Of a DNA stretch of 64,000 nt, positions 1 to 33,892 are shown one piece after another. This stretch comes from Shinella kummerowiae (lineage in GTDB: Bacteria > Pseudomonadota > Alphaproteobacteria > Rhizobiales > Rhizobiaceae): assembly GCF_009827055.1 (NCBI RefSeq), contig NZ_WUMK01000013.1, forward strand, positions 1 through 64,000, written 5' to 3'. Under the pieces are notes generated by a model, which saw only the letters and a program-made list of their open reading frames with translations, had not been told where the DNA came from and did not search any database. The position numbers and the translations under genes were made by a program. The number at the start of each line of letters is the position of its first letter. Position 1 is the first letter of the stretch.

Positions 1-99
1 CGTCTGAGGCAAGACTGCCTGAAATTCGATATCGACAGTTGCAATTGCCTGGATATTTTGAGAAGTGACGGGGTAAATGACCATTTGGTGAGGGATGCA

Positions 100-1316: not shown

Positions 1317-3935
1317 TTGAAATCAATAGTTGCTCATCTGGGTAGATTTGAACGACGCTTCTCCCAGTCGACTCTGGCTATCATACTTACCTTGCTTGGT
1401 GCAAGGGCAGCCGAACAATACCTCAGCCATTCGCCAATCGTTCGCCGGACTCAAGCCCGCATTCTCTGGCTCCACAAGCGTATTTTGTTGCGCAAGGGAC
1501 GGGATGCGGCGGATAGGTTTGCGATCGACTATCTCTCCGCTCGGCCAAGAGTTCAGGATTACAGCACCATTTTGGTGGGAACTGGGGAAGCCTCCCTGAC
1601 CACCGATAGACTCACGGCATCTCTGCCGGCGATCACGACAGTCGCCAGAAAAAGCGCCGCTACATATATAGCGTTAATTTCAACCCTCCTTGAGCGCGGC
1701 GAAATCGAGCTCGTATCCGAGCAAATAAATGACGCGCCCAGCAATTCGTCCGCGGCCTGGCATTCGTTGCTTATGTCGCTCACCCCCCAACCTTTATTTG
1801 GGACCGAGGCCAGCGACGGCGACGTGGTGACCGCGAAGAATCTGCAACCGCCCCCGTGCAAGAGCCGGCTGATCATTATGGACGAGGAGCTGTCGCCGGC
1901 TACCATCAGAAGCCTTGCAGACGGGGCCGAAAAAGTCACACTCCTGCAATACAGGGATCTTTATGGGCGAATCGATCTCAACGCCATTCAGACCGAGTTG
2001 CCAGACTGCGAGATATCGATCGAGCATGCACGCTCCCGGGTGGACCGCTTCCACCAACGATATTTCGAATTGCATCAAAAGACGCTTAATGCGGCGGAAA
2101 CACTGAGCCGAAGCTTTATCCAGAAAACACCCTGGCTTAGAGAGCTTGTTCCCGGCCTGAAGGATCTTGACAAAGACCTGACACTCGAACTCGCCGACAA
2201 GCTGTTTTTCAAGGCATTGCGCCTGGAAGGGGTGCATCGGGCGGTGCTCGATCCGTCGTTCGACAGCGTTATTGTTTCTTTCGGCGATGGATTTGAACTG
2301 TATCGCTTGTTCTATTCTGACCCAGCACTCTGGCAAGATCCGCGCATCAAAGGCTGCTGCCGCTCGAAAAAGATCAAGACTGTAAGAAAGTTCGCCTCGC
2401 GCATTTCCGGAATGCAACACCGAGCGATCGTTGGAAGTACGGCACCGATACTTGGGCATATCGCATCGCTGAAGGAAAACGGGCAGACAACTGCCAGCCA
2501 ATTTCCACCGGAAGACGTGGCCCGCTACCTGAAATCTGCAAGCAAAATCCCAAGCGCAACGAGATCGAGCCATCTGCCGGACCACCAGACCATAGCATTC
2601 GTCGCCCAGGAGGGCCGCGCCTATGGTTCTACAGCCGTTCAACTGGCCACTCATCTCCACGCGAAATATAATGTAGACATCATCCTCACGCTTGGTAGCG
2701 GAAACAGGCTTCAAAAATCCGTGTCTTCTGCGCAGGAAGACCCTTACTTGCCAATCCAGGCGAGAGGTCGTCAGCCGAGTTATTTAAAGTTCGCGGCCCC
2801 TGCCCCTAGCCAGGCAGCAACTGGAGTTTTCTCTCGCCAATTTAATGTAACCTTGCAGGACACGATCACGACGCTGCTTTGGGCCAACCAGCAAGATCTT
2901 GCCGTGTATTCAGCGCTAGATTTCTTGCTGACATCCGGTTTGCCAGAGGCCATTTTGAGCGTATTGGCCAATGCGCGTGCTGTCGCTGCCCTGCTGGAGC
3001 GGGAAAAATACGCAGCAATTGCTATATCACCGATACGAACCCCACGTAATGCCCAGTTCACGACGCTTGCACGCGAAGCTGGAATACCCTCGATCGCCGT
3101 GGAACCGCATTGCCTGAATGCAGCCTATTGCCGCTACGGCACGGTCCTCAGTGACTATGCCGCCGTCTATTCCGACTATTATTCCGAAGAATACGATCGC
3201 CACTTTGGTATCTCCAAGGCTCGCTGCTACCTATTTGGCTCACCACGAATCCTGCGACCGATCGGCTATGACCCGATCGCCTCTCGCATGAACGCACGTC
3301 GACGCATTGGCCTGCATCAGGGGGATCCGCCAGTGATTGCAGTGCCGACACAGCCCATGCCCACCGATTACATCCTTGGGGTTTGGAGAATGATCATTCG
3401 TGCGGCTAAGTCGCTCGATATGCCGATGCGAATCTTACTTAAAACCCATCCTGAAGAAGGCGCCGGCCACATCAACCGCTACCGTCAGGTAATCGCGGAG
3501 GAAAATGCGATGCATCTTTGCTCCGTAGCCGACGTAGACATAAAGGACCTATTGATGGCTAGTGAGCTCGTGCTTACCGCCTACAGCGTTACGGCTCTGG
3601 AAGCGACCGTGCTTGAACGGAATGTGGCGATCGTCGGAAAGGCTGGGGTTGCCTATCCCACGGAGTACGACAAGATACTGGGCATTCCATTTTGTGACAC
3701 GGAGCAGAAAACGAAGGATACTATCCTGGAGGCCTTGAGCTTGGGCCGGGACGCACGATCCGGGGCGAAGGACTTCATTGCAGCGAATCCGTATCTATTC
3801 AATAATTCATCCTTCGACCGTCTCGCCAGCGCGCTAGAAGACATTATAGCCAAGGGCCCCGACGGCATCCGGCGCCACGAGGATTTGCCCTCATCGCTTT
3901 TCGTAACCGCCCCATTCCAAGAGTATCTGGTATGA
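1317..3935 (+). CDS. Large GT-B-like surface-carbohydrate glycosyltransferase candidate
   Basis: An 872-aa protein that I do not recognise by name. The C-terminal third looks like a GT-B fold of the capsule or CDP-glycerol-transferase class: a LLKTHPEE element near residue 720, then ASELVLTAYSVTALEATVL, the usual nucleotide-sugar-binding helix region, and a final helical stretch. The first 400 residues carry no motif I can name and could be a second Rossmann-like domain. No signal peptide or membrane span is evident, so it is probably cytoplasmic or peripheral. The start is TTG at 1317; the ATG at 1297 hits a stop at once. Its last codon overlaps legI (ATGA). By context it may transfer the nonulosonic acid or build its acceptor glycan. 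Confidence 0.5.
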   Translation: MKSIVAHLGRFERRFSQSTLAIILTLLGARAAEQYLSHSPIVRRTQARILWLHKRILLRKGRDAADRFAIDYLSARPRVQDYSTILVGTGEASLTTDRLTASLPAITTVARKSAATYIALISTLLERGEIELVSEQINDAPSNSSAAWHSLLMSLTPQPLFGTEASDGDVVTAKNLQPPPCKSRLIIMDEELSPATIRSLADGAEKVTLLQYRDLYGRIDLNAIQTELPDCEISIEHARSRVDRFHQRYFELHQKTLNAAETLSRSFIQKTPWLRELVPGLKDLDKDLTLELADKLFFKALRLEGVHRAVLDPSFDSVIVSFGDGFELYRLFYSDPALWQDPRIKGCCRSKKIKTVRKFASRISGMQHRAIVGSTAPILGHIASLKENGQTTASQFPPEDVARYLKSASKIPSATRSSHLPDHQTIAFVAQEGRAYGSTAVQLATHLHAKYNVDIILTLGSGNRLQKSVSSAQEDPYLPIQARGRQPSYLKFAAPAPSQAATGVFSRQFNVTLQDTITTLLWANQQDLAVYSALDFLLTSGLPEAILSVLANARAVAALLEREKYAAIAISPIRTPRNAQFTTLAREAGIPSIAVEPHCLNAAYCRYGTVLSDYAAVYSDYYSEEYDRHFGISKARCYLFGSPRILRPIGYDPIASRMNARRRIGLHQGDPPVIAVPTQPMPTDYILGVWRMIIRAAKSLDMPMRILLKTHPEEGAGHINRYRQVIAEENAMHLCSVADVDIKDLLMASELVLTAYSVTALEATVLERNVAIVGKAGVAYPTEYDKILGIPFCDTEQKTKDTILEALSLGRDARSGAKDFIAANPYLFNNSSFDRLASALEDIIAKGPDGIRRHEDLPSSLFVTAPFQEYLV

Positions 3936-4981
3936 ACAAGTCATTTTCGATTGCCGATAGAACTATTGGCCAGCGCCAACCCTGCTTCATCATTGCCGAG
4001 GTTGGCGTTAACCATAATGGCAACCCGGACCTCGCTGCCAAACTGATCAGTGCGGCTCGCCACGCCGGCGCCGACGCGGTGAAGTTCCAGACTTTTAAGG
4101 CCGATCAACTCGTGGTGCGCGCCACTCCAACGGCGGCCTACCAGAAGGCCAATACCAATCTGACCGACCAGCATGCTATGCTCGCCGCGCTGGAACTGAG
4201 CGAGGGTGCACATCTGGCCCTGCTTGAACAATGCCGCGCCGAGGGTATTATCTTTCTCTCTTCGCCGTTCGACTTGGAAAGCATTGACATGCTCGATCGG
4301 CTGGATGTACCGGCCTTTAAGGTTCCGTCACCCGATTGCGTCTCGCAATCCTATCTGTCGCATATGGGCTCGAAGCAGCGCCCCGTCATCCTCTCAACCG
4401 GCATGTGCGACATGGAAGAGGTCGCCTTTGGCGTGAACACTCTTCGCCATTCGGGCAGCCCCGACATAGCACTCCTACACTGCACGAGTTGCTATCCGGC
4501 TCCGCCCGACGAACTCAATCTCCGCGTCATTCCTGCACTCGGCGACGTGACGGGATTGCCGGTCGGCTATTCCGACCACACGGATGGGATCGCGGTTTCG
4601 ATCGCCGCCGTGGCTCTTGGTGCCTGCATCATCGAAAAGCATATGACTCTCGACCGCAATCTCCCTGGCCCGGACCATAAGGCCTCTCTGGAGCCAACCG
4701 AGTTCGCCGCGATGGTTGCGGGAATCCGAACTGTGGAGCAGGCACTCGGAAACTCGATCAAGGCTGCCCAATTGTGCGAAGCCTCGGCCCGGCAACTAGG
4801 CAGGCGCAGCGTGGCCGTCAATCGAGACCTGCCGGCCGGGCACAGGCTCACGCCCAACGACCTCATCCTGCTGCGGCCCGGTACGGGGCTTTCACCGCGC
4901 TTGGAAGGCTTGATGGCCGGCCGCATACTTGGCCGGCCGGTGGCTGCAAATACGCTTTTGGCGATCGAGGATTTAACATGA
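3932..4981 (+). CDS. legI: N,N'-diacetyllegionaminate (sialic-acid family) synthase
   Basis: NeuB-family PEP-condensing enzyme of 349 aa. It joins phosphoenolpyruvate to a 6-deoxy-mannosamine derivative to make the nine-carbon acid. The TIM-barrel part shows IIAEVGVNHNGN at the start, AVKFQTF, FKVPS, LLHCTSCYP, GYSDHT and EKHMTLDRNLPGPDHK, all family hallmarks. A C-terminal antifreeze-like SAF domain follows (about residues 285-345, RSVAVNRDLPAGHRL). Length is normal. The start overlaps the stop of the preceding glycosyltransferase-like gene, and its end overlaps legH, so translation is probably coupled. The choice of legionaminate over sialate or pseudaminate comes from the linked LegB/LegC/LegG set, not from this protein alone. 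Confidence 0.88.
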   Translation: MNKSFSIADRTIGQRQPCFIIAEVGVNHNGNPDLAAKLISAARHAGADAVKFQTFKADQLVVRATPTAAYQKANTNLTDQHAMLAALELSEGAHLALLEQCRAEGIIFLSSPFDLESIDMLDRLDVPAFKVPSPDCVSQSYLSHMGSKQRPVILSTGMCDMEEVAFGVNTLRHSGSPDIALLHCTSCYPAPPDELNLRVIPALGDVTGLPVGYSDHTDGIAVSIAAVALGACIIEKHMTLDRNLPGPDHKASLEPTEFAAMVAGIRTVEQALGNSIKAAQLCEASARQLGRRSVAVNRDLPAGHRLTPNDLILLRPGTGLSPRLEGLMAGRILGRPVAANTLLAIEDLT

Positions 4982-5625
4982 GCTCACCAAACAGTCTGAT
5001 TCTGCTTGGAGCTGGCGGTCACGCCAAGGTCGTTTCTGAGGTCGCACGCTCGGCGGGCTGGCGGATTGCAGGTTTCCTGGCGCCGGAGTGCGGTAGAGGA
5101 GAGCAAAACCTCTGCGCGCCGCTGCTAGGCAATGGCTTGGACCTAACCGCAAACCCTACATGGCTGGAGCAAAACGATCTATTCCCAGCCATCGGCCAAG
5201 GAGAGATTCGCTGGCGGGAGTTTGTGCGCCTCGCCGCCGCCGGAGCACGCGTCCCCTATCTAGTCCACCCGAGCGCACTCGTCTCGCCATCCGCGCAAAT
5301 CGAGGCCGGCGCCGTAGTCATGGCCGGCGCCATCATTCAGGCCAATAGCGTGATAGGTCCCGCCGCTATCATTAACACTGGAGCACAAGTGGATCATGAC
5401 TGTCACATCGGCGCCGGTACTATGATCGCACCGGGCGCGGTCCTATGCGGCGACGTTCATGTTGGAGATCACGCTTTCGTGGGCGCCGGCGCAGTGATTG
5501 TGCCTCGCATTCGCATCGGCAGAGGCGCATTCGTTGGGGCCGGGACAACCGTAGTCAATGACATCATGGACGGCAGCCAGATCAAGGCATCTCGGCGCTC
5601 CCATATCGTTCCGAGACCTGAGTAA
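4978..5625 (+). CDS. legH: Left-handed beta-helix sugar N-acetyltransferase, LegH/PglD type
   Basis: A 215-aa acetyltransferase with the NeuD/PglD layout. An N-terminal Rossmann-like UDP/GDP-sugar-binding half begins LILLGAGGHAKVV, and a hexapeptide-repeat left-handed beta-helix covers roughly residues 90-205 (repeats such as IGAGTMIAPGAVLCGDVHVGD). The conserved catalytic His sits in QVDHDCHIG. In the legionaminate route this enzyme acetylates the 4-amino sugar produced by LegC, using acetyl-CoA. The start ATG at 4978 overlaps legI by 4 bp; longer in-frame extensions upstream lie inside legI and lack a ribosome site. A generic NeuD-type O-acetyltransferase is the main alternative. Confidence 0.82.
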   Translation: MSSPNSLILLGAGGHAKVVSEVARSAGWRIAGFLAPECGRGEQNLCAPLLGNGLDLTANPTWLEQNDLFPAIGQGEIRWREFVRLAAAGARVPYLVHPSALVSPSAQIEAGAVVMAGAIIQANSVIGPAAIINTGAQVDHDCHIGAGTMIAPGAVLCGDVHVGDHAFVGAGAVIVPRIRIGRGAFVGAGTTVVNDIMDGSQIKASRRSHIVPRPE

Positions 5626-5628
5626 GCG

Positions 5629-6570
5629 ATGTTTGAGTTTAGACCTTACCGCAACGGAGATGAGCCAGAGATCACGGCCCTGTTCGAGACTGTCTTTGGG
5701 CAGCCGATGAGCTTGGAATTCTGGCGCTGGCGCTTTCTTGACCATCCCGCGGGCGGTCCTCTCGTCATGTTGGCCTTCGCTGAGGACAAACTCGTCGGGC
5801 ATTACGCAGCAAGCCAAGCTCCCTTATGCATCGGTGGCCAGTACTATCCCGCCGCGCTTTCCATGACAACGATGACTCACCCGAACTGGCGAGGCAAGCG
5901 GCTGTTCGAAAGAACTGCCGAGGCTCTCTACTCGACCCTTCCAGGGCATGGCATACTCGCGGTTTACGGTTTCCCAAATGCTGCGGTGCACGCCCTGCGT
6001 ATTATGCGGGCCGGTTGGCACGACAGCTACGAAGTACCAACGCTCGCGCTCGACATGGCTTCGCTACGTCGTCCTGCCCAACCCGACTCTGCCGTCAAGA
6101 TTGCTGATCGGATTGACGGCCGCTTCGGCCACTTCTTTGCTAAAATCTCCAAGGAGCTGCCAATTGCAGCACACCGGGACAGCCACATCCTTTCCTGGCG
6201 CATCGATCACAATCCCCACAATAGCTACAGACGCTTAGTACTGGAGGAAGGCAATGAGATCGCTGGATATGCAGTGACCAAGTCTTATGGTGTGGATATG
6301 CTTGATCTCGTAGAATTACGTTGTGCCGACGGGGCCGCCGCGCGTGCGCTAATTGGCACCGTGGTGGCGCATGCAGCAACCGAAGGCTGTTCACGCATCT
6401 CCACATGGTGCCTGCCGAACGACCTCCACCGTATGCCGCTGGAAATGGCGGGCTTCAAGGCTTCCGCACCGGTTACCTATTTTGGTGGCAGGACTTTCAC
6501 CGCGCCTCCTGTCGACCTGACGGATGGCCGCCTCTGGCGCCTCTCCATGCTGGATTCCGACCTTTACTGA
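5629..6570 (+). CDS. Two-domain GNAT-like acyltransferase
   Basis: A 313-aa protein that opens with FEFRPYRNGDEPEITALFETVFG and contains MTTMTHPNWRGKRLFERTAEAL, the typical acetyl-CoA-binding V/IxHPxxRGxG/K region of GNAT enzymes, at about residues 80-105. The second half (about 170-300) looks like a second degenerate GNAT fold with WRIDHNPH. It lies three bases after legH and four before legG, squarely inside the operon. It probably adds an acyl group to a nonulosonic-acid intermediate or to the finished sugar, and may work with the PIG-L deacetylase two genes downstream to swap N-acyl groups. The substrate is not visible from sequence. Confidence 0.6.
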   Translation: MFEFRPYRNGDEPEITALFETVFGQPMSLEFWRWRFLDHPAGGPLVMLAFAEDKLVGHYAASQAPLCIGGQYYPAALSMTTMTHPNWRGKRLFERTAEALYSTLPGHGILAVYGFPNAAVHALRIMRAGWHDSYEVPTLALDMASLRRPAQPDSAVKIADRIDGRFGHFFAKISKELPIAAHRDSHILSWRIDHNPHNSYRRLVLEEGNEIAGYAVTKSYGVDMLDLVELRCADGAAARALIGTVVAHAATEGCSRISTWCLPNDLHRMPLEMAGFKASAPVTYFGGRTFTAPPVDLTDGRLWRLSMLDSDLY

Positions 6571-6574
6571 GTAG

Positions 6575-7750
6575 ATGAAAATGAACAGAACTGTCCACTT
6601 CCTAACCGGTATTCGCTCCGAGTACGACATTCTCGCTCCTGTAATCGCTGCTGTGGACGCGCAGCCGGACCTTGATGCCAAGGTCATCGTAACGGGAGCC
6701 CATCTAACCGGCCTGCATGGTCATTCCGTCCGGCAGATCGAAGCAGACGGCTATCATATCGCCGCGCGTATCGAATCTCTGCTGGCCTCCGATGGTCTGG
6801 GTGGACGCGTTAAGGGAATGGCCCTTCAACTGGCGGGGCTATCCGATCTCTTCACCCGCGAGAAACCAGATTTCCTTGTCGTGATGGGAGACCGCGAGGA
6901 GGTCATGACGGGTGCTGTGGCCGCCATCTATCACCACATTCCCATCGTACATATCGGTGGTGGCGATCATGCTGACGACGGCAATGTCGACAATCTGGTA
7001 CGCCACGCGGTATCGAAAATGGCCCATCTGCACATGGCCACTACCGAGTTAAGTGCCCTCCGCCTGCGTGGACTCGGAGAGGAACCTTGGCGTATTCATG
7101 TCACCGGCGCATCCGGTCTCGACCGCATCATGGCGACTCCCAACTTGAGCCGTACCGATCTTGAAAAGGCTCTTGGTGTCGACTGGCATGGTGAACCCTA
7201 TGCGGTGCTACTGTACCACCCAACAATTACCGATTTCGCCGAAGCGAGAGCGCACATGGCGTCGATCACGCGTGTGCTTGAAACGACTGGCCTGAACATC
7301 GCCGTGATGGCGCCCAATTCTGATCCTGGCAACCAAGCGATCACCCTGGAGATCAACGCACTGATCGCCCGTTATCCCAAGGCAAAAGCATTCACCTTCC
7401 TCGAACGCACTGTGTTCATCAACATGTTGCGCCACGCGCGTGTCATGGTTGGCAACTCGTCGGCAGGCATCCTTGAAGCGCCAAGTATGGGTCTCCCCGT
7501 GATCAATATTGGCATCCGCCAGAGAGGGCGAGAGCACGGTGATAACGTTATTTTCACCGATTATGATGCTGGAGAAATTGCTGCCGCCGTCAACAAGGCC
7601 ACCACGGACGAAGATTTCCGCACCCTAGTGGCGCAGAGGCGTACGCCGTATGGCGACGGCAAGGCTGGGCAGCGAATTGCCGAGGTCTTGCGAACTGTCG
7701 AACTCGGCCGCAGCCTGCTCGACAAGAAATGGATTCAGGGAGTAAAATGA
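6575..7750 (+). CDS. legG: NDP-sugar hydrolysing 2-epimerase, LegG/NeuC type
   Basis: A 391-aa member of the UDP-GlcNAc 2-epimerase family in its hydrolysing (NeuC/LegG) branch. Visible motifs are TGIRSEYDILAPVI near the N terminus, VVMGDREEVM, PIVHIGGGDHADDGNVDN, and the C-terminal nucleotide site VGNSSAGILEAPSMGLPVINIG followed by RQRGRE. It releases NDP and yields the mannosamine-configured sugar that LegI condenses with PEP. Two in-frame ATGs (6575 and 6581) are close together; either is plausible. The stop overlaps the start of the PIG-L gene. In PtmE-type systems the released nucleotide is GDP; that detail is inferred from the cluster. Confidence 0.85.
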   Translation: MKMNRTVHFLTGIRSEYDILAPVIAAVDAQPDLDAKVIVTGAHLTGLHGHSVRQIEADGYHIAARIESLLASDGLGGRVKGMALQLAGLSDLFTREKPDFLVVMGDREEVMTGAVAAIYHHIPIVHIGGGDHADDGNVDNLVRHAVSKMAHLHMATTELSALRLRGLGEEPWRIHVTGASGLDRIMATPNLSRTDLEKALGVDWHGEPYAVLLYHPTITDFAEARAHMASITRVLETTGLNIAVMAPNSDPGNQAITLEINALIARYPKAKAFTFLERTVFINMLRHARVMVGNSSAGILEAPSMGLPVINIGIRQRGREHGDNVIFTDYDAGEIAAAVNKATTDEDFRTLVAQRRTPYGDGKAGQRIAEVLRTVELGRSLLDKKWIQGVK

Positions 7751-8430
7751 TGCTATTGGAACGCGACGGTGGCCCGATTTTGGTCATTGCCCCTCACCCG
7801 GACGACGAAACGCTCGGTGCAGGAGGCCTGTTGCTGCGTGCCCGCGCTGCGGGCCGTGCGATCCACTGGCTGATCGTCACCGGCATCACGGAGCAGGATT
7901 GGCCGGTCGAGAAGGTAGTGCGCCGTGAGACTGAAATCGACACAGTCACCAAGGCTTTCGGCTTCGCTGGCGTACACAGGCTGAACCTGCCATCGGCAAA
8001 ACTTGAAACCCTTCCGCTCGGCGAGATAATCGGTAGAATCGGCAAGGTGGTCAATACGATCAAACCGGAGATGATTCTCATTCCTCATCGCGGCGATGCT
8101 CACTCCGACCACCACGTGGTCCATGCGGCAGCAACGGCATGCGCAAAATGGTTCCGCTATCCCTCAGTTCGCTGGACGTTAGTCTACGAGACGCTGTCCG
8201 AGACCGATGCCGGCCTGTTTTCCAGCGATCCGTTCATTCCCAACATCTTCGTCGACATCAGCGAGCACCTGGAGGAAAAGTTGCACATTACGACGATGTT
8301 CAACGACGAGATCGGCGAGTTCCCCTTCCCTCGCAGCCTTGATGCCATCCGCGCCCTAGCGATGACGCGGGGAGCGGCTTCGGGAACCCGTGCCGCAGAG
8401 GCCTTTATCTTGCTTCGAGGAAGCTTTTGA
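7747..8430 (+). CDS. PIG-L/LmbE family deacetylase
   Basis: A 227-aa zinc-dependent N-deacetylase. The family signature appears at the start as IAPHPDDETLGAGG, with the second metal-site motif HRGDAHSDHHVVH around residues 120-132. Such enzymes remove N-acetyl groups from GlcNAc-like sugars. The ATG at 7747 overlaps the stop of legG. PIG-L proteins occur in many nonulosonic-acid loci but are not part of the standard legionaminate route, so it may create a free amine for re-acylation by the GNAT at 5629-6570. The following 169 bp before the next gene carry no clear terminator. Confidence 0.75.
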   Translation: MMLLERDGGPILVIAPHPDDETLGAGGLLLRARAAGRAIHWLIVTGITEQDWPVEKVVRRETEIDTVTKAFGFAGVHRLNLPSAKLETLPLGEIIGRIGKVVNTIKPEMILIPHRGDAHSDHHVVHAAATACAKWFRYPSVRWTLVYETLSETDAGLFSSDPFIPNIFVDISEHLEEKLHITTMFNDEIGEFPFPRSLDAIRALAMTRGAASGTRAAEAFILLRGSF

Positions 8431-8599: not shown

Positions 8600-9823
8600 A
8601 TGGCTTCCGTTCACCCTCATAGACGCCACGAATTTGGACTGGAGGGCAGATTACGCAAGATCGCTCAGACCGTCCGATGGTGGATGGAGGGCGCACCGGG
8701 CCGGTACAGCCGCAGGCAGTATCTGAAGCTTTATCACAGCGGTCAGTTTGAGGAGGCTGCCGTGGCTTTGCGGACTGCTCTTCAGGCGACACCGAACGAC
8801 TTCCAATTGATGTTTCAGGTTGCCAGCCTTTCGCGCTTCGGCCTGCTACCGCTTGATGAGTCGCTGCTTCTGCTGCAAAGGATTGTTGCAGAGGCGCCGT
8901 CAGTCACGGCGCGGCATGCAGCCATTCATCTCGTCAACCTGCTTTGGGAGCGCAAAGGCGCTAATGCAGCGATGGAATGGCTACCGCGCCTGATTCAGGA
9001 GGGGGAAAGGTCGCCGCGCCTCCTTCTGCGCGCAGCCGCGCTGGCCCATGAGGCAGGAGAAACAAAGGACGCCTTCGACTTGCTGGTCCAAGTTGGACGA
9101 AAGCGTCCTTCCGCTTTGTCATCGATGGGTTACCTCGATCTGATTCTGGCGGCGGCAGAAGACGGAGCAGCGAAGCTGCCCCAAGCGGAACGCGCGCGCG
9201 TTGTTGCCAACCATCTATCCCGTTTTACCGGTCGGTTCACACAGATGATCGAGCGCTCCGCTGGTAACGTGGCCGTGGTCGCGAATGGACCATCCCTTGA
9301 GAGACTTCGTCTCGGTAGCACCATCGATTTGCACCAACTGGTGGTTCGCTTCAACAATCATGCAGCGTGCCCAGGATCGGTCGACCAAGGGGAAAAGACG
9401 GATATCTGGATCCGCCCGCCCGAATTCACCTACGTGCCGATGCGGAGCATGACCGCTGACGGGCTTCTCATTCTGACTGGCTCCAACATTCGGAACCGAA
9501 ATTCGACCGGCCTGCATCTGCTGGAGCCCTATGTTCGGGAAAACCTACCGATCGAACTCGTCCCCAAGGAATTGTATGCGCGTCTGTTTGCTGCGCTCGA
9601 CGCCTCTCCGAGTGCCGGCCTAGTCGGCCTCGTCTGGACGCAAGAGGCGATGGGGCGAACATTGTCATCCACGCAGGTTTTCGGCTATGCGTTGGACCGA
9701 AATACATCCGCAGTCTCCCACTACCACGGTAAGCACCACACGGGTTCCTGGCCGAGTCGCCATAACTGGCAGGCGGAACACGCTCTTTTCCAGTCACTGA
9801 TAAATAGGGGCACATCCGCATGA
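8600..9823 (+). CDS. GT29-type sialyltransferase-like glycosyltransferase with N-terminal helical repeats
   Basis: A 407-aa protein. Residues about 45-185 look like TPR-style helical pairs. The C-terminal half follows the sialylmotif order of GT29: a large-motif region with VAVVANGPSL (225-233) and QLVVRFNN (246-253), a small-motif region SPSAGLVGLVW (336-346) then VFGYALD (360-366), motif III-like HYH (374-376), and a VS-like HNWQAE (388-393). GT29 enzymes transfer sialic acid from CMP-sialate with a single-displacement mechanism and are best known from eukaryotes. With CMP-legionaminate made by the linked LegF, the likely job is to attach the nonulosonic acid to a glycan or protein. No membrane anchor is seen, so it is predicted cytoplasmic. 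Motif assignment is by eye. Confidence 0.6.
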   Translation: MASVHPHRRHEFGLEGRLRKIAQTVRWWMEGAPGRYSRRQYLKLYHSGQFEEAAVALRTALQATPNDFQLMFQVASLSRFGLLPLDESLLLLQRIVAEAPSVTARHAAIHLVNLLWERKGANAAMEWLPRLIQEGERSPRLLLRAAALAHEAGETKDAFDLLVQVGRKRPSALSSMGYLDLILAAAEDGAAKLPQAERARVVANHLSRFTGRFTQMIERSAGNVAVVANGPSLERLRLGSTIDLHQLVVRFNNHAACPGSVDQGEKTDIWIRPPEFTYVPMRSMTADGLLILTGSNIRNRNSTGLHLLEPYVRENLPIELVPKELYARLFAALDASPSAGLVGLVWTQEAMGRTLSSTQVFGYALDRNTSAVSHYHGKHHTGSWPSRHNWQAEHALFQSLINRGTSA

Positions 9824-10773
9824 ATCCAACAGTCCTAGTCGTTGGCTGCGGCAACATCGGCCGCCGGCACATAGAGGCGCTCGCCGCCGCCGGTCGCCCA
9901 ATGCGCGTGATCGGCGTTGAACCCGTTGAGGCAGCGCGCGCCCAAGCCGAAGCACTTGTCGCCTCCTTTGAGAACGGATCGAAGGTGCTTGCAAACATGG
10001 ACGACGTGCCGGAGGCTGTGGATCTGGCAATCATTGCCACTTCGGCAGCTCATCGCCGAACCGCCTTTGAGAGAATGCTTTCCCGTTGCGTGCCGAAGGC
10101 CGTAATCTTTGAAAAGGTGCTGTTTACTACCCGCACCGACCTAGACGCCGTGGGTAAACTCCTAGCATCCCACGCAATCCCCGCCTTCGTCAATTGTGGC
10201 CGTCGGGGCTTCCCCTCTTATAACCGGCTGCGCAACCTCCTAACCACGCAACGCGGCTTGTCGATGAAGGTCACGGGAGCAGGCTGGAACCTCGGCTCCA
10301 ACGCCATTCACTTCATCGACCTTGCCGAGCATGTTCTTGGAGATCAGACCGTTGCGCTAGACGAATCTGATCTAGATCCCAACCCCGTTCCCGCACGGAT
10401 CGCAGGATGCGTCGACCTGTTCGGCACGCTGCGTGGTACCCTGGCAGGTGGTGGTACGATTGCCATTACCCAAGAGCGCGCACCCGGAAACCCGGTTTCA
10501 ATCACCTTCTTTGGTGGCGGGGAAAGCTGGTGCATCGAAGAGGCAGCGAACAGGCTCATTCACCGCAATGTCGCTGGTGAAGAGAATTTGCAGGTCTTCG
10601 AAACGTTGTTCGTTAGCGGCATGCCCTATCTCTACACCGATATATTCGACGGTAAGGGGTGCTGCCTGACGCCTTATGAAAAGTCGGCGGCGCAACACGC
10701 GCTGTTCCTCGACGCCTTGCGTCGCCGCCTTGGCCTTTCCATTTCGGAGGATGTGCAGTGCCCGATCAGTTGA
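9820..10773 (+). CDS. Gfo/Idh/MocA-family oxidoreductase 1
   Basis: A 317-aa NAD(P)-dependent dehydrogenase. The N terminus VLVVGCGNIGRRHIEALAAAG is a Rossmann dinucleotide site, AVIFEKVLF stands where the family has its EKP motif, and the C-terminal half is the substrate/dimerisation domain (NAIHFIDLAEHVLGD). It overlaps the GT29-like gene by 4 bp and the next oxidoreductase by 16 bp. The EKP proline is replaced (EKV), which is unusual and may mean altered chemistry or a structural role. Two tandem Gfo/Idh genes suggest a redox step or epimerisation on a sugar specific to this locus; the substrate is unknown. Confidence 0.7.
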   Translation: MNPTVLVVGCGNIGRRHIEALAAAGRPMRVIGVEPVEAARAQAEALVASFENGSKVLANMDDVPEAVDLAIIATSAAHRRTAFERMLSRCVPKAVIFEKVLFTTRTDLDAVGKLLASHAIPAFVNCGRRGFPSYNRLRNLLTTQRGLSMKVTGAGWNLGSNAIHFIDLAEHVLGDQTVALDESDLDPNPVPARIAGCVDLFGTLRGTLAGGGTIAITQERAPGNPVSITFFGGGESWCIEEAANRLIHRNVAGEENLQVFETLFVSGMPYLYTDIFDGKGCCLTPYEKSAAQHALFLDALRRRLGLSISEDVQCPIS

Positions 10774-11747
10774 ATACCTTGCTCCTTGTCGGTACCGGCG
10801 CCATGTCGGCAGCCTATGCCAAGGTGCTGAAGGCCCTCGGGCAGCCGTTCATTGCAGCCGGTAGGGGTGCTGAACGGGCCGAGGCCTTTGCTCGTGAATG
10901 GGGTGTAGAGGCCGGGCAAGGCCCGCTGCCTGAACAAATCTCCCGATTAAAGGAAGTACCCCAAACCGCTATCATCGCCGTTAGCGCGGCAAACCTTGCC
11001 GAAGCCACTGCACAGTTGGTCGAGGCGGGCGTGCGCCGGCTGCTGGTCGAAAAGCCGGCAGCCCTCAACCAAGCCGATGCCGAATCGCTGGATGTCCTGG
11101 CGAGGAATGCAGGCGCCGAAGTCTATGTCGCCTATAATCGCCGCTTCTACGCATCTGTCGAGGCCGCACGCACGCTCATTGACGCCGACGGCGGAGTTCT
11201 CTCGTTCAAGTTCGACTTTACCGAGGCGCGTACACGCATCGAAGCGCTGAACAAGGATCCCGCCGAACTTGCGGGCTGGCTCTACGGCAATTCGACCCAC
11301 GTCATCGATCTGGCCTTCTTCCTGGGCGGCCATCCCAAGACAATTGTCGCACAGAGCCGCGGTGGTTTGGCCTGGCATCCGTCCGGCGCGATCTTCTCCG
11401 GCTGCGGCACGACGGACAAAGGCGCCGATTTCTCCTATCACGCGAACTGGCTTGCGCCGGGTCGCTGGGGGGTCGAAGTGATGACGGCCAAGAGTCGCCT
11501 TATTCTGCAGCCAATGGAGCAACTGATGTTGCAGAACCTGCAGAGTTTTGCGGTGGAGGCCGTTGCCATCAACGATACCTTGGACAAGGACTTCAAGCCT
11601 GGCCTCTACCGGCAGACGGAGGCGTTCCTGTCCGGCAAACCCGATCCCCGATTGATGAGTCTGTCGGAACAGGCCAAGTCTTTCAAAGATTACACCGTCA
11701 TCCGAGACGGTAACCATTCGAACTTCGTAGGAGAAAACCGGCTATGA
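10758..11747 (+). CDS. Gfo/Idh/MocA-family oxidoreductase 2
   Basis: A 329-aa dehydrogenase starting at GTG with GGAGG seven bases upstream. The Rossmann entry is LLLVGTGAMSAAYAKVL, the catalytic-loop EKP is intact (LLVEKPAALNQ), YVAYNRRFY is the typical central motif, and GNSTHVIDLAFFLGG carries the family histidine. It differs clearly from its neighbour at 9820 and from the PtmF-like copy at 14926, so these are three separate activities rather than recent duplicates. The end overlaps legB by 4 bp, implying coupled translation with the core pathway. Confidence 0.72.
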   Translation: MPDQLNTLLLVGTGAMSAAYAKVLKALGQPFIAAGRGAERAEAFAREWGVEAGQGPLPEQISRLKEVPQTAIIAVSAANLAEATAQLVEAGVRRLLVEKPAALNQADAESLDVLARNAGAEVYVAYNRRFYASVEAARTLIDADGGVLSFKFDFTEARTRIEALNKDPAELAGWLYGNSTHVIDLAFFLGGHPKTIVAQSRGGLAWHPSGAIFSGCGTTDKGADFSYHANWLAPGRWGVEVMTAKSRLILQPMEQLMLQNLQSFAVEAVAINDTLDKDFKPGLYRQTEAFLSGKPDPRLMSLSEQAKSFKDYTVIRDGNHSNFVGENRL

Positions 11748-12757
11748 GCAACTTGTCTGGCAAAACCGTTCTTGTGACCGGCGCCGACGGCTTCATCGGC
11801 TCGCATCTGGTCGAGCATCTAGTGCGTCAAGGCTTCAAGGTCCGCGCCTTCTCACTTTATAATAGCTTCGGCACCTGGGGCTGGCTCGATCGCATCGCCC
11901 CCGAGGTACAGGGTTCGTTCGAGGTGTTCAGCGGCGACATTCGGGACCCGAACGGAGTGGCGACCGCCATGCGCGGCTGCGATCTCGTGCTGCATCTCGC
12001 TGCTCTGATTGCTATCCCCTATTCCTACCATTCGCCCGATACCTATATCGACACAAACATTAAGGGCACCCTCAATATCCTACAGGCGGCACGCCTCCTT
12101 GAAACGGAGCGTATCGTCCATACCTCCACCAGTGAGGTCTACGGTACAGCCCAGTTTGTTCCGATAACCGAGGAGCATCCGCTCGTCGGCCAATCACCCT
12201 ATTCGGCCTCGAAGATCGGCGCGGACCAGTTGGCCCTGTCGTTCTACCGTTCCTTTGGCACGCCGGTAACCGTGATCCGCCCCTTTAACACCTTCGGCCC
12301 ACGCCAGTCGACGCGCGCGGTGCTGCCAACGATCATCACCCAGCTTGCAGCCGGCAAGAAGGAGGTCCGCCTCGGCAAACTCAGCCCGACGCGCGACTTC
12401 ACCTATGTCGCCGATACCGTCAAGGCCTTCCAAGCCATGGCCGAAAGCCCGAACGTGCTGGGCGAAGTCGTCAATTTCGGCAGCGGCTTCGAGATCTCGA
12501 TCGAAGACAGCGTCAAGACGATTATTGACATCATGGGCGTCGACGCCAAGATTGTTTCCGAGGAACAGCGACAGCGTCCGGAACTTAGCGAAGTCGATCG
12601 GCTGTGGGCAGGCATCGATAAGGCCAAGCGCCTCACGGACTGGAAGCCTGATTATTCGGGCCACGAAGGCTTTGCCCGGGGCGTTCGCGAGACCATCGAA
12701 TGGTTCAGCAATCCAAGCAATCTGGCCCTTTACAAGGCCGAGACCTACGGTATCTGA
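11744..12757 (+). CDS. legB: NDP-sugar 4,6-dehydratase, LegB type
   Basis: A 337-aa extended SDR. It has TGADGFIGSHL for NAD binding, HTSTSEVYG and YSASKIGAD (Ser/Tyr/Lys catalytic set), and FNTFGPRQSTRAVLPTII typical of GDP/UDP-GlcNAc 4,6-dehydratases of the LegB/RmlB kind. It makes the 4-keto-6-deoxy intermediate that LegC aminates. Length and motif spacing are normal. The retaining (LegB) rather than C5-inverting (PseB) call rests on the neighbouring LegC and LegG. It overlaps the oxidoreductase upstream by 4 bp and is two bases from legC. Confidence 0.85.
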   Translation: MSNLSGKTVLVTGADGFIGSHLVEHLVRQGFKVRAFSLYNSFGTWGWLDRIAPEVQGSFEVFSGDIRDPNGVATAMRGCDLVLHLAALIAIPYSYHSPDTYIDTNIKGTLNILQAARLLETERIVHTSTSEVYGTAQFVPITEEHPLVGQSPYSASKIGADQLALSFYRSFGTPVTVIRPFNTFGPRQSTRAVLPTIITQLAAGKKEVRLGKLSPTRDFTYVADTVKAFQAMAESPNVLGEVVNFGSGFEISIEDSVKTIIDIMGVDAKIVSEEQRQRPELSEVDRLWAGIDKAKRLTDWKPDYSGHEGFARGVRETIEWFSNPSNLALYKAETYGI

Positions 12758-12758: not shown

Positions 12759-13934
12759 ATGGCGAAACTAGATGTTCAAAGCGCCGTCAAGATCCTACGT
12801 GAGATTGCGGCGCCCGCCGGCAATTCTGTCGCCCTGCACGAGCCACGCTTTGCCGGCGCGGAATGGGACTATGTCAAGGACTGCCTCGACACCGGATGGG
12901 TCTCCTCAGTCGGCGCCTATGTCGACCGTTTTGAAAAGGAACTGGCGGAGGCCTTCGGTGTTCATCGCGCAGTCGCCGCCGTCAACGGCACGGCCGCCCT
13001 TCATATCGCCCTGATGCTCGTCGGCGTGAAGCCGGGCGATGAGGTTCTTATCCCGGCACTGACTTTTGCGGCAACGGCCAATGCAGTGGCCTATTGCGGT
13101 GCCATTCCCCACTTCATCGACAGCACCATGGAAACGCTGGGGCTTGATCCTGACGCGCTCGATGCCTGGCTCTCGGAGATTGCCGATCCGGGAGAGAATG
13201 GTCCAATCAACAGAGAGACCGGCCGTCGACTAGCAGCCGTCGTACCGATGCACGCCTTCGGCCATCCGATGGCAATCGTCCGGCTGCTCGAAGTCGGGGA
13301 AAAATGGGGCATTCCGATCGTCGAAGACGCCGCAGAATCGCTCGGCTCCCTGCTGAACGGACGTCCGCTCGGTGGCCGGGGCAAGATCGGCATCACCAGT
13401 TTCAACGGTAACAAGATTATCACCACTGGCGGCGGTGGAGCGATTCTGACCAATGACGAAGAACTCGGCGCTCGCGCTAAGTATCTGACGACGACCGCCA
13501 AGCGTCCTCACCGCTGGGCCTTCTGGCACGATGAACTTGGCTACAACTACCGCCTGCCTAACCTCAACGCGGCGCTCGGCTGCGCACAGTTGGAACAGTT
13601 GCCGACCTTCCTCGCTGCCAAACGCCGCCTCGCCGAGCGCTATAGACAAGCGTTCGAAGGTGTCGAGGGGCTTCGCTTTTTCGTCGAACCCGAGGGTTCG
13701 AAGAGCAATTACTGGCTGAACGCTGTCATTCTTGATGAGGCCGGTGACCGCGACAATTTCCTCGCCGTGACCAACGATGCTGGTTTGATGACACGTCCCT
13801 GCTGGGCCCTGATGTGTGACCTTCCGATGTACGTATCGAGTCCCTCTATGCCCCTGCCGGTTGCCCGCGCCATAGAACAGCGCCTAGTCAACATCCCTAG
13901 CAGCGCGATACTTGCTTTGGAGAGTGATGAATGA
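12759..13934 (+). CDS. legC: PLP-dependent sugar aminotransferase, LegC type
   Basis: A 391-aa DegT/DnrJ/EryC1 aminotransferase. It shows FVDRFEKELAEAFGV-like N-terminal region, VNGTAALHIAL, EDAAESLGS, and the PLP-lysine segment FNGNKIITTGGGGAI. In the pathway it converts the 4-keto-6-deoxy sugar to the 4-amino sugar with glutamate as donor. The chosen ATG at 12759 follows the legB stop directly; the longer in-frame opening upstream lies wholly inside legB. It overlaps the SGNH gene by 4 bp. WecE-, PglE- or LegC-type activities share this fold, so the name depends on context. Confidence 0.85.
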   Translation: MAKLDVQSAVKILREIAAPAGNSVALHEPRFAGAEWDYVKDCLDTGWVSSVGAYVDRFEKELAEAFGVHRAVAAVNGTAALHIALMLVGVKPGDEVLIPALTFAATANAVAYCGAIPHFIDSTMETLGLDPDALDAWLSEIADPGENGPINRETGRRLAAVVPMHAFGHPMAIVRLLEVGEKWGIPIVEDAAESLGSLLNGRPLGGRGKIGITSFNGNKIITTGGGGAILTNDEELGARAKYLTTTAKRPHRWAFWHDELGYNYRLPNLNAALGCAQLEQLPTFLAAKRRLAERYRQAFEGVEGLRFFVEPEGSKSNYWLNAVILDEAGDRDNFLAVTNDAGLMTRPCWALMCDLPMYVSSPSMPLPVARAIEQRLVNIPSSAILALESDE

Positions 13935-14917
13935 ACGAAGCATCGCCTATTTTGGCGTCAGCAGCCGAGCTGTCGTTCCCCGATGGAGTCGGAACCGTCA
14001 TAGCCGCAGCGCACGCAGCCGCAGGAAAAGGCAGGATGGATGAAGCCGTGCGGTGGTTTGACCTATGTCGCAAGCTTCTGACGACGATCGCGCCGGCAGC
14101 CGCGTTGAAAAAACGAATTGTAGCCAATGAGCAGGGGCGACGGCGTGAAGCTATCAAGTTCCACAAGGCAATTATGGATCGCGGCGCGCGCGATGCCGGG
14201 ACGCGTGTAGCAATATTCGCCGACTCGCTTGCCTTGCCTCGACCGGAGGAAATGGATGCCTTTCCTGGAAATCTTGAGCAGACCTATCCCGGCATCATCA
14301 ATGCCCGTTTGCAAGCGGCGCCGACCCTTCAGGGGGCCTCCGTCTGGGCTCACTGCGAACGCTATTTCACGACGGACAACCTAGTAGGGTTGCTATCTGA
14401 ATATCCAGAATCTGTAAGAGATGCCCATGTGCTGGTGCATCTCGGCCTCAATGATTGTGCAATTCGGATGTATATGGATGAGCAGCGACTCGCGGTCGGT
14501 CTGTTACCGGACGACATTTCCAAAGAAGTTTTGGCTTTCAGCAATAAATATCGAAGTGCTCTCGTCGAAGCCTTTCCAAATTTTTCCTATGTCCCGATTC
14601 AGAAATTCACCGCGAACCTCCACCAGATCGCACAAATAACGAGATCCGCGAATGCAAAAAGTCTCACCTTTACGACGACGATCGTAGTTCCGGAGAGGTT
14701 CTGGCCGGCAACTCCGGGGATCTGTCAGAACTTTACAGCATACAACCTGGAAACGATGAATGTCGCGAACCAAGTCGGGGCCAGAGTATTGGATGTTGAC
14801 CGACTTATGTGGGGCAGAAGCACCGGAGCCACCTTAAACAAGGATGGGATGCATCTATCGCCGGTCGGCCACGAGCTGCTCGCAACGTCCTGGCTGAAGT
14901 CCACATTCAAAATCTAG
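13931..14917 (+). CDS. SGNH/GDSL hydrolase with helical N-terminal region
   Basis: A 328-aa protein. The first 90 residues are helical and TPR-like. From residue 93 it shows the SGNH blocks: IFADSLALPR (Ser99), HLGLNDC (Asn174), and a C-terminal DGMHLSPVGHEL with Asp305 and His308. Such hydrolases act as esterases or O-acyltransferases on sugars. There is no signal peptide, so it is expected in the cytoplasm with the biosynthetic enzymes. Its place between legC and ptmF points to O-acyl editing of the nonulosonic acid or its glycan; the substrate is inferred only. Block II is weak, so a divergent subfamily is likely. Confidence 0.62.
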   Translation: MNEASPILASAAELSFPDGVGTVIAAAHAAAGKGRMDEAVRWFDLCRKLLTTIAPAAALKKRIVANEQGRRREAIKFHKAIMDRGARDAGTRVAIFADSLALPRPEEMDAFPGNLEQTYPGIINARLQAAPTLQGASVWAHCERYFTTDNLVGLLSEYPESVRDAHVLVHLGLNDCAIRMYMDEQRLAVGLLPDDISKEVLAFSNKYRSALVEAFPNFSYVPIQKFTANLHQIAQITRSANAKSLTFTTTIVVPERFWPATPGICQNFTAYNLETMNVANQVGARVLDVDRLMWGRSTGATLNKDGMHLSPVGHELLATSWLKSTFKI

Positions 14918-14925: not shown

Positions 14926-15810
14926 ATGCGAATTCTGATTATCGGCAATGGCTCGATCGGGAACCGCCACGCCCGCCTTCTGGCATCCGCTGGACACGAC
15001 ATAGCCATACTGTCCACCCGACCAGTCGAAAAACATCGCAGCTTCACGGTCCTCAATGAAGCGCTGGCGGATTTCTTGCCGGACTTTGTGATTGTCGCGA
15101 GCGTGACGAGTCGCCATGGCGCAGATATTGATGCCCTCTTAGAGCGCGGGTATACCAAGCCGATTTTGGTGGAAAAGCCGCTTCTTGCAACAGTCCCCGC
15201 AGGTGATATCCCGGAGCCACGTCCTTCAGTCCGGGTTGCTTATAATCTCAGGTTCCATCCAGTGATTATAGCCTTGCGAAAGGCGTTGGAGGGAAAAAAG
15301 GTTTTCGCGGCCAACATTGTCGCCGGCCAGCATTTGTCCCAATGGCGCCCTGGGCGAGACATGCTGTCCACCTATTCCGCAAGCAAGGAGAGGGGAGGTG
15401 GCGTGGTGCGGGATCTTTCGCATGAGCTTGATCTAGCGCAGCATGTATTCGGCCCGCTTTCGCTCATAGCAAGCCACAGCGCGCGGGTAGGTTCCGTTAC
15501 GATCGATAGCGAGGACGTAGCCACGGCCATCCTGTCGTCAGCTTCATGTCCCTTGATCACGATCCATTTAAACTATCTTGATCGGCAACCCCGCCGGCAT
15601 TGGGTGGTGATAACAGATACCGGTACAATCGAGGCGGACCTGGTCAAGTCCATAATCAGCATCAATGGAGAGCACGAGACCATTCCAGTCGCCCCCGATG
15701 AGACCTATAAACGACTGCACCAAGCGGTGCTGGCCGGCGAAACCGGCCCGTGCAATTGGGATGAAGGAATTGCCGCCGTGACATTGGCTGACAGGATAGC
15801 CCCTCTATGA
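14926..15810 (+). CDS. ptmF: Gfo/Idh/MocA oxidoreductase, PtmF-like
   Basis: A 294-aa protein beginning LIIGNGSIGNRHARLLASAG with LVEKPLL as the EKP element and a central RYNLRFHP-like stretch (VAYNLRFHP). It sits directly before the CMP-transferase and SDR genes, the same F-B-A order as Campylobacter ptmF-ptmB-ptmA, where PtmF with PtmA helps supply glucosamine-6-phosphate from fructose-6-phosphate. The start at 14926 follows the SGNH stop by eight bases; a longer frame opening upstream lies inside that gene. The third Gfo/Idh protein of the island and the shortest. Confidence 0.68.
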   Translation: MRILIIGNGSIGNRHARLLASAGHDIAILSTRPVEKHRSFTVLNEALADFLPDFVIVASVTSRHGADIDALLERGYTKPILVEKPLLATVPAGDIPEPRPSVRVAYNLRFHPVIIALRKALEGKKVFAANIVAGQHLSQWRPGRDMLSTYSASKERGGGVVRDLSHELDLAQHVFGPLSLIASHSARVGSVTIDSEDVATAILSSASCPLITIHLNYLDRQPRRHWVVITDTGTIEADLVKSIISINGEHETIPVAPDETYKRLHQAVLAGETGPCNWDEGIAAVTLADRIAPL

Positions 15811-16520
15811 CCGAGACGCCGAAATTCATCTGCACCATCTGCGCCCGCGGAGGCTCCAAAGGGGTTCCGGGCAAGAACATTCGCATGCTGATGGGAAAGC
15901 CGTTGATCGGCCATTCAATCGCCCAGGCCAAGGCGACAGGGCTTTTTGCAGCGATAGCGATCAGCAGCGACAGTGAAGAGATTCTCGGTGTTGCGCACGA
16001 GTATGGTGCCGACTTGCTCATCAAGCGCCCCGACGAACTGGCATCCGACACCGCTGGCAAATTGCCGGCAATACTTCATGCCCTGGCAGAGGCTGAGGCC
16101 CGCCTAGGTGTCGAGGCTGATTATCTGATCGATTTGGACGCAACCTCGCCCCTAAGATTGCCGGAGGATATTCAGGCCTGCGCCAACCTGCTGATTGAGA
16201 CCGGCACAAGCTGCGTTATCACCGGCACGCCAGCCCATCGCTCCCCCTATTTCAATCTCGTTGAACGAACGCTGGACGGAACCGTCCAGCTAAGCAAGCA
16301 GCTATCGAAACCGGTCCTGCGCCGTCAGGATAGCCCGGAATGCTATGATATGAATGCTTCGATCTATGGTTGGCGACGCGATGCGCTAAGCAAAGATCCG
16401 AAGGTATTCTATCCAGATACCCAACTCTACGTCATGCCGCGGAATCGTTCCGCTGACATCGATGAAGAAATGGATTTCGCCATCGTAAAGATGATCATGC
16501 AGCAAAGGGAAGCGAAATGA
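15807..16520 (+). CDS. legF: CMP-nonulosonate cytidylyltransferase, LegF/PtmB type
   Basis: A 237-aa CMP-sialate-synthetase family protein. The CTP-binding motif is present as ICARGGSKGVPGKNIRML, followed by AIAISSDSEEI, and LDATSPLR marks the sugar-binding region. It activates legionaminic acid to CMP-legionaminate, the donor for transferases such as the GT29-like protein. It overlaps ptmF and the SDR gene by 4 bp on each side. The length matches single-domain bacterial NeuA/PtmB enzymes, with no C-terminal esterase domain. Confidence 0.88.
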   Translation: MTETPKFICTICARGGSKGVPGKNIRMLMGKPLIGHSIAQAKATGLFAAIAISSDSEEILGVAHEYGADLLIKRPDELASDTAGKLPAILHALAEAEARLGVEADYLIDLDATSPLRLPEDIQACANLLIETGTSCVITGTPAHRSPYFNLVERTLDGTVQLSKQLSKPVLRRQDSPECYDMNASIYGWRRDALSKDPKVFYPDTQLYVMPRNRSADIDEEMDFAIVKMIMQQREAK

Positions 16521-26459: not shown

Positions 26460-26786
26460 ATGTCATCGCCCCTGCCCGGTGACGCGCCGTTAACCTTACC
26501 GGCGACGCTCACCATCAAGAATATATTGGCAGTCCAGGAGTTGATCTTGGATTTTCTAAATAAAAATACGACCACCGTTCTGGATATTGATGAAGAGGCG
26601 CAGATCGACCTCAGCTTTGTCCAGCTCGTGACGGCCGCGCGCAAACAGGCGGAAATGAAAGCAGGGCGGGTTCTACTTGCCCGGCCCGCGACGGGAGACC
26701 TTTACGACGTGCTGAAGCGTGGCGGTTTCCTCGATGACATGACGCCCGAGGCCGCACATTTCTGGTTGCATCAGGAGACGAATTGA
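26460..26786 (+). CDS. STAS-domain protein of the chemotaxis operon
   Basis: A 108-aa single STAS domain (anti-sigma-factor-antagonist fold): LPATLTIKNILAVQELILDFL, then the DIDEEAQIDLSFVQLVTAARKQAEMK core. The residue usually phosphorylated in SpoIIAA proteins would be near LSFVQ, where a Ser is present. First gene of the operon, overlapping cheY at its stop. Members found next to cheY/cheA are thought to tune signalling, but no direct role is known to me. Confidence 0.8.
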   Translation: MSSPLPGDAPLTLPATLTIKNILAVQELILDFLNKNTTTVLDIDEEAQIDLSFVQLVTAARKQAEMKAGRVLLARPATGDLYDVLKRGGFLDDMTPEAAHFWLHQETN

Positions 26787-29660: not shown

Positions 29661-29676
29661 GCACCAGGAGAGATCC

Positions 29677-31377: not shown

Positions 31378-31570
31378 TCAGGAATATGGACGGCGCGCCC
31401 GGTGATGGGTGCGCCGTCAGATCGACCCGGCGTGTGTAGGCGCTGGCAAAAGGACCGCCTTCCCGCGGTCCGCGGAAGGGTGAATGTATCGGTCTTCGCG
31501 CATAACGGGCCCCGTCGTCTCGGGTGCCCTGCCAACCATACGGCATCTGCGACCAAAGGAGCCCTTCGAA

Positions 31571-33379: not shown

Positions 33380-33381
33380 TC

Positions 33382-33876: not shown

Positions 33877-33892
33877 TTTCAGGAGAACGGGC

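Follow-up and report, generated by a model that had tools for sequence, protein, structure and literature searches.

GT29 is the family of the animal sialyltransferases, and bacteria have been proposed as its source (PMC5811610). The same study (Petit et al., 2018) analysed 23 bacterial GT29 sequences, the function of which, as reported there, could not be predicted. In 2026, a GT29-GT107 protein was linked to the putative poly-Kdo K6 capsule of E. coli (PMC13171606). In the open-access literature we found no measured activity of a bacterial GT29, no GT29 associated with legionaminic acid and no GT29 in rhizobia. Capsules of the group-2 type are described as being assembled on a poly-Kdo glycolipid, which is primed by transition transferases and then elongated by a polymerase (PMC11666461). 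According to the same source, the polymerases studied require a TPR domain to elongate the primed linker, and TPR domains have been reported in many capsule polymerases (PMC5974469, PMC11666461). Among rhizobia, the K-antigen is stated to matter for symbiosis in PMC4881576, which also treats the rkp-3 region of S. fredii. The K-antigen of S. fredii NGR234 is reported to contain pseudaminic acid, and a mutant in its NeuB gene (rkpQ) to lose the capsule and keep motility (PMC7591256).

The DNA that we analysed is a stretch of 64,000 nucleotides from Shinella kummerowiae (contig NZ_WUMK01000013.1, positions 1 to 64,000), referred to below as the window. Positions 8600..9823 of its plus strand hold a real open reading frame of 407 codons with an ATG start, encoding a TPR-GT29 protein that we predict to be a CMP-legionaminic acid transferase. 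A predicted helical (TPR-like) solenoid, recognized from an AlphaFold2 model, weak TPR matches and a profile match to a consensus TPR structure, covers residues ~47-200 (8738..9199, plus strand). It is followed by a GT29 catalytic domain, assigned with sequence profiles, at residues 206-407 (9215..9820, plus strand). Motif L of this domain occupies residues 226-253 (VVANGPSL...IDLHQLVVRFNN, then DQGEKTDIW), motif S residues 336-345 (SPSAGLVGLV), motif III residues 374-377 (HYHG) and motif VS residues 388-393 (HNWQAE, i.e. H-x4-E). The four sialylmotifs, named here as in PMC5811610 and in the sequence-only reading of this DNA, were present in order, with the H-x4-E, at the positions given by that reading. 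The only cysteine is C257, and the motif L/S disulfide cysteines of Golgi-type GT29s are absent. Peak 19-residue hydropathy is 1.29, with no obvious transmembrane segment and no type II membrane anchor. The earlier proposal that the protein lacks a Golgi-type anchor and is located in the cytoplasm agrees with these values, and the prediction of a soluble, cytoplasmic protein holds. The bacterial GT29s of Petit et al. (2018), as described in PMC5811610, similarly have four sialylmotifs, no anchor and no paired cysteines. Animal GT29s, in contrast, differ from the window protein in its want of a signal anchor, its single cysteine, its TPR-like half and its presumed legionaminic donor.

We considered the possibility that the motifs had been matched by chance. 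Pfam PF00777 (GT29) recognized the protein at 34 bits (cut-off 23), over residues 218-275 only, which correspond to motif L. The downstream half, 136 residues with motifs S, III and VS, was therefore taken alone, and it scored 54.9 bits (E 9.8e-16) with a profile made from the corresponding halves, after motif L, of 13 distant bacterial GT29s. None of these had been recruited via the window protein; all came from searches with the Pfam model, the matches of which fall mostly on motif L. With the same profile, the best of 2,000 same-letter shuffles reached 9.7 bits, and none of the 268 other ORFs in the window rose above that value. An earlier profile of 16 halves had given 62.2 bits against a best shuffle of 7.4; three of the 16 (L016, L044 and L046) had been recruited by the window protein and were for that reason removed for the 13-half control. 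A chance match was rejected, as the shuffle controls fell far below the real score.

Comparison with solved enzymes led in the same direction. A hand-picked profile of 22 of the 36 cut domains (A3) matched ST3Gal1 (2wnb) at E 8.8e-19, with a likeness over the catalytic domain in which motifs L, S, III and VS were all aligned and the PSxG, GF, HY and H-x4-E positions lined up. All 22 aligned bacterial domains match PF00777 at E up to 0.01, 13 of them having been recruited with that model. An 11-sequence profile (A4), recruited only by the window protein, reached PDB sialyltransferases at E 8e-11 through motif L only, the region in which ST6Gal1 (6qvs) and ST8Sia (5bo6) resemble it. Seventeen residues are invariant in the 11 homologues (V227, N229, G239, I242, D243, V248, R250, N252, D262, G264, S338, G340, G352, G362, H388, W390 and E393), most of these columns falling within or beside motifs L, S and VS. 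When the C-terminal half was searched alone against solved structures in the PDB, nothing was found up to E 10, a result that counts against an independent proof of the fold. AlphaFold2, run with six close sequences, gave ten-residue blocks of the catalytic domain at pLDDT 25-40 and a mean of 33.6 for the domain alone; five scans of viral contigs gave no diverse relatives usable for folding. Given these low models and the C-terminal half without a PDB match, membership in GT29, a family with a GT-A variant fold and inverting transfer from a CMP-ulosonate, rests on sequence profiles. On these, the GT29-type claim was confirmed, with a Pfam match over cut-off, the downstream half far above its shuffles and the match to ST3Gal1. 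A best match to an unrelated family such as DUF115 had been named beforehand as the outcome that would speak against it. PF01973 (Maf/MptE-like), which we take to be the former DUF115, was searched for and was absent from the scan of the window protein; the organism's genome gave no match to it either (E up to 1). A Maf/DUF115 identity was rejected, since the protein has no PF01973 match.

The N-terminal half was modelled by AlphaFold2 as helical hairpins over residues ~47-200, with 13 of the 15 ten-residue blocks of 51-200 at pLDDT 68-93 and the other two at 51 and 59. Pfam TPR matches in the window protein were all below cut-off, one of five orthologues scanned (L012) exceeded a TPR cut-off, and the A4 profile matched a consensus TPR structure at E 3.4e-4. 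The hairpins and the weak Pfam matches support the TPR-like N-terminal part that had been proposed. In tblastn, the alignment of the window protein with the GT29 of an E. coli capsule locus begins at residue 151, within the helical half, so that part of this half is common to the E. coli enzyme, in which Pfam found no TPR. A stretch of 143-530 residues precedes motif L in 26 of the 37 collected GT29s. Ten GT29s were scanned with Pfam: L017 has clear TPRs and L022 a TPR match below cut-off, a Capsule_synth domain is present in L024 and L029, a polysaccharide pyruvyl transferase domain at the C-terminus of L016 and L030, and the remaining four have GT29 only. As separate observations, GT29 and Capsule_synth lie in a single frame in L024 and L029, from genomes of the same order, the pair also described from E. 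coli K6; GT29 is followed by the pyruvyl transferase in one ORF in L016 and L030 and, by near-identity to the scanned ones, in L031. Two GT29 genes adjoin each other in one genome (L070:9544-11531), and G364 also has two neighbouring matches.

The gene belongs to a legionaminic-acid operon that is conserved in Rhizobiaceae, all members of which lie on the plus strand of the window. The leg setting recognized by the sequence-only reading was upheld by the LegB 4,6-dehydratase (11744..12757; TIGR04180, 509 bits, cut-off 475) and the LegC aminotransferase (12759..13934; TIGR04181, 522 bits, cut-off 420), both models being typed hypoth_equivalog. The first gene (58..1197), conserved in relatives, encodes a CBS and nucleotidyltransferase protein of the sugar-1-phosphate type, whose matches, to nucleotidyltransferase families and over a CBS stretch of the KpsF type, stay under the equivalog cut-offs, and to which we presumptively assign a PtmE-like role. 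Between it and the GT29 gene are those for an 872-residue putative capsule glycosyltransferase/polymerase partner (1317..3935), a NeuB-family synthase (3932..4981; PF03102, 306 bits), a NeuD/PglD-family sugar acyltransferase (4978..5625; TIGR03570, 194 bits, cut-off 161), a GNAT acetyltransferase (5629..6570; PF13527), a NeuC/LegG-type nucleotide-sugar 2-epimerase (6575..7750; TIGR03568, 371 bits, cut-off 236) and a PIG-L deacetylase (7729..8430; PF02585). For the synthase we propose a LegI-type role; it scored 389.6 bits with NeuB_NnaB (cut-off 399.65) and 281.7 with PseI (cut-off 340.25), the only two models listed, with no LegI model among them. After the GT29 gene come two GFO/IDH/MocA oxidoreductases (9820..10773 and 10758..11747; both PF01408), LegB, LegC, a GDSL/SGNH hydrolase-like protein that may modify the polymer (13931..14917; PF13472), a third GFO/IDH/MocA oxidoreductase (14926..15810; PF01408), a CMP-nonulosonate synthetase (PseF/NeuA-like; 15807..16520; TIGR03584, 132 bits, below the cut-off of 206) and an SDR oxidoreductase (16517..17323) with no listed model over cut-off, presumably in a PtmA-like role. 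The PIG-L deacetylase and the three GFO/IDH enzymes suggest that the operon product is a legionaminic acid derivative carrying a further modification.

The 872-residue protein scored 20.7 bits with Capsule_synth (cut-off 20) and 19.3 with Glyphos_transf, below cut-off; its S. mexicanum homologue reached 33.3 bits with Glyphos_transf, over cut-off. A search of this family against the PDB yielded no glycosyltransferase; the matches obtained were weak and mostly to helical repeats. Its gene accompanies GT29 in the window and in seven close loci, in one of them (L011) as a fragment only. Elsewhere in the window, an ar14 alphaproteobacterial sRNA was found at 36779-36903 on the minus strand (102.6 bits), and 26783-35832 holds what is, by the look of the ORFs, a chemotaxis-type gene cluster.

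Six further Rhizobiaceae-type loci encode this GT29 protein, 65-71% identical over the full length, and the S. mexicanum homologue is 42% identical over residues 19-401. Genes g01-g12 are collinear in L008, L010, L012 and L013, and L009 has the same order without the GNAT gene. The operon of L011 is in pieces, apparently through frameshifts, and has no GNAT match; as its GT29 reading frame breaks, it was left out of the alignments. This locus comes from a complete chromosome record (Rhizobium sp. RCAM05350), and the breaks in several of its operon genes, GT29 included, reflect decay or sequencing error. Beyond LegC the gene order varies: L013 has the window's g13-g16, L008 and L012 have g13 and g15, and L009 and L010 have divergent genes. 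L013 lies on a contig binned as Arenimonas and holds the whole Rhizobiaceae-type operon, g13-g16 included, probably through a binning error and possibly through transfer. In a tree of 35 GT29s, built without L024 (incomplete) and L032 (motif missed by the search pattern), the window's clade formed a separate branch of seven rows with support 100/99; alignment A6 was made without L045, also missed by the search pattern.

In a family sample of 297 genomes, three had a match, the organism's own included, and one of the three (G084) had a distant GT29 only; none of four other genomes of the genus had one. Among genomes sampled from the order, 12 of 347 had a GT29 at E up to 0.001, as did 9 of 398 sampled from the phylum, the organism's own being counted in each. 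GC content is 54-60% across the operon against 61-67% at 18-30 kb, where one kilobase is at 53%; the window contains no tRNA genes. This occurrence together with the GC pattern would fit horizontal spread of the leg/GT29 operon. The idea that a GT29 would be an outlier among bacteria did not survive these counts, three plasmid records annotated 'glycosyltransferase family 29 protein' and the 23 bacterial sequences of the 2018 study.

The neighbourhood of its relatives bears on what the protein may build. In S. mexicanum (L043), the GT29 ORF begins 48 bp past an rkpR-type gene (11874 to 11923), the product of which is 84-85% identical to its NGR234 and S. meliloti counterparts and scores 241 bits with TIGR01010, below the cut-off of 437.5. 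Ahead of the rkpR-type gene are a Capsule_synth gene and then an ABC ATPase gene, the latter product 89-90% identical to those of NGR234 and S. meliloti. After it follow GT29, two GFO/IDH genes, LegB, LegC and the nucleotidyltransferase, with the 872-residue protein, NeuB, NeuD, GNAT, NeuC and PIG-L in the opposite direction and Capsule_synth, KpsM-like, GDSL-like and CMP-sugar synthetase genes farther out. NGR234 has NeuB, NeuA-like, LegC/PseC-like and LegB/PseB-like genes after rkpR, in the place where S. mexicanum has the leg and 872-residue-protein genes; we take the NGR234 set to be the one behind the pseudaminic acid of this strain's K-antigen described in PMC7591256.

Among the closer loci, L008 and L009 have Capsule_synth genes upstream of the operon, L012 and L013 have a similar-looking ORF, and the G234 record has KpsM-like, Capsule_synth and CTP-transferase genes downstream. 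The window contig starts right at the operon (1-58), so that the gene upstream of it lies outside the sequence. KpsE-M-T- and KpsS-C-like genes are present in the same genome on contig C7. The upstream Capsule_synth protein of L008 matched, in that genome, only two modules of the C7 KpsC (47% and 33%), and no close counterpart of it was found in this search; a Capsule_synth match of 44.8 bits at the end of contig C16 was not hit by the L008 protein. We also searched 20 more distant GT29 neighbourhoods by tblastn, a subset of the GT29s found (L024, L031, L032, L034, L039 and L040 were not among them; L034 adjoins L031, and a near twin of L034, in G399, lies within L070). Six of the 20 had a capsule, nonulosonate or Kdo marker: capsule export (KpsT/KpsE/KpsS) in L065 and L066, NeuB with NeuA in L062 and L080, a KdsB-like gene in L068 and, in L069, a KpsS-like stretch that is the fused domain itself. 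The other 14 gave no marker save generic matches, which were left uncounted (LegB-like in L079, NeuD-like in L075, SDR/GFO, low-identity ABC ATPases and KpsT at 20-35%). A distant GT29 is found together with kdsB in the plasmid capsule locus of E. coli HNSQ2209. L046 is an E. coli plasmid (IncFIA, pig source) with a kps-type capsule region that holds GT29, kdsB and an IS1-like transposase. A capsule role is well supported for the window's clade. Because 14 of the 20 distant neighbourhoods lack a counted marker, this conclusion is limited to that clade and does not extend to every bacterial GT29.

These findings had to be weighed against other acceptors and another donor. The build of the protein recalls FlmG of Caulobacter, a cytoplasmic enzyme with an N-terminal TPR half that is described as binding flagellin, a C-terminal transferase and a nonulosonate donor (PMC7591256). 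By analogy, the window protein might be a TPR-guided cytoplasmic protein O-glycosyltransferase with flagellin or another protein as the acceptor of legionaminic acid, and the sequence-only reading had suggested a protein acceptor. Speaking for this are five Flagellin_N matches in the genome, by sequence reading four flagellins and one FlgL-like protein, and a genome free of Maf/MptE-like family matches. Yet FlmG is described as a GT-B enzyme, whereas the catalytic half here is GT29 and no link to flagellin was found: the flagellin genes are on a different contig, and tblastn (E up to 1e-3) detected no flagellin near GT29 in 40 stretches, which included the window and the fetched GT29 neighbourhoods. 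Orthologues lie within or beside K-antigen genes instead, the TPR is a common feature of capsule polymerases in the sources cited above, and the helical half is in part shared with the E. coli capsule-locus GT29. A protein or flagellin acceptor was thus set aside as first choice on the capsule gene context and the lack of a nearby flagellin, and we regard it as very unlikely. A specific version, in which the TPR would pick the protein and the GT29 domain would, still in the cytoplasm, link legionaminic acid directly to its Ser/Thr residues, seems highly improbable; such a protein O-legionaminyltransferase, if true, would have converged with FlmG and with eukaryotic OGT while being built on the animal sialyltransferase family.

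A different donor is conceivable as well. The enzyme could transfer Kdo, to the linker or the repeat unit of the capsule, instead of legionaminic acid. The dual GT29-GT107 protein of E. coli K6, with its putative poly-Kdo capsule (PMC13171606), and kdsB in the E. coli plasmid locus are in keeping with this. In plants, RCKT1 has been proposed to be a Kdo transferase of family GT29 (PMC11288761), which points to possible use of Kdo by the family. However, the leg operon around the window gene includes a CMP-sugar synthetase of its own, and the separate KpsS/KpsC-type genes of the genome would serve a poly-Kdo linker, which makes this account unlikely. Decoration of lipopolysaccharide or O-antigen with legionaminic acid would be consistent with the lipopolysaccharide changes also seen in S. 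fredii HH103 rkp-3 mutants (PMC4881576), but the genes neighbouring GT29 in relatives are those of capsule export and Capsule_synth, and we give this account very little credence.

We therefore favour, as the likely explanation, a cytoplasmic GT29 that moves a legionaminic-acid-type nonulosonate from CMP to a K-antigen-type capsule, probably with the 872-residue partner. GT29 homology across the catalytic domain, the predicted solenoid, the leg pathway, the conservation of the operon and the rkp-type setting of S. mexicanum were computed; from these we infer the donor, the acceptor, the linkage, the partner and a capsule role for the window's own operon. In this scheme the leg operon around the GT29 gene would make the CMP-linked donor, and the GT29 would attach the legionaminic residue with inversion of the anomeric carbon. 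The acceptor would be the capsular polysaccharide of group-2 type (K-antigen/KPS) that grows at the inner membrane. The GT29 and the 872-residue putative glycosyltransferase are the two candidate transferases of the operon and most likely cooperate. The GT29 might form half of a polymerising pair, or might serve as transition transferase and begin the chain on the poly-Kdo anchor. Through its TPR-like half, the GT29 may bind to its partner or to the growing polymer and be held in the assembly complex.

Such an arrangement has parallels in the TagF-like capsule polymerases and transition transferases, which, as described in PMC11666461 and PMC5974469, also combine a TPR with a transferase in ABC-transporter capsule assembly but differ from the window protein in transferase fold and donor. 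The GT29-GT107 protein of E. coli K6, as reported, and the GT29 of HNSQ2209 share with the window's clade a GT29 domain in a transporter-dependent capsule locus. The K6 protein, however, combines two transferases and has a putative poly-Kdo product, whereas the window protein joins a TPR to GT29 and has a leg pathway adjoining. What is new is the TPR-GT29/legionaminic/K-antigen combination; bacterial GT29 itself was already known.

A soluble GT29 beside its own donor pathway makes bacterial GT29 activity testable. Transfer of legionaminic acid, if true, would suggest that GT29 worked with nonulosonates besides Neu5Ac, and the protein would be of use as a tool enzyme for this sugar, which several pathogens carry. 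It would also aid in finding an enzyme that assembles the variable part of a rhizobial K-antigen.
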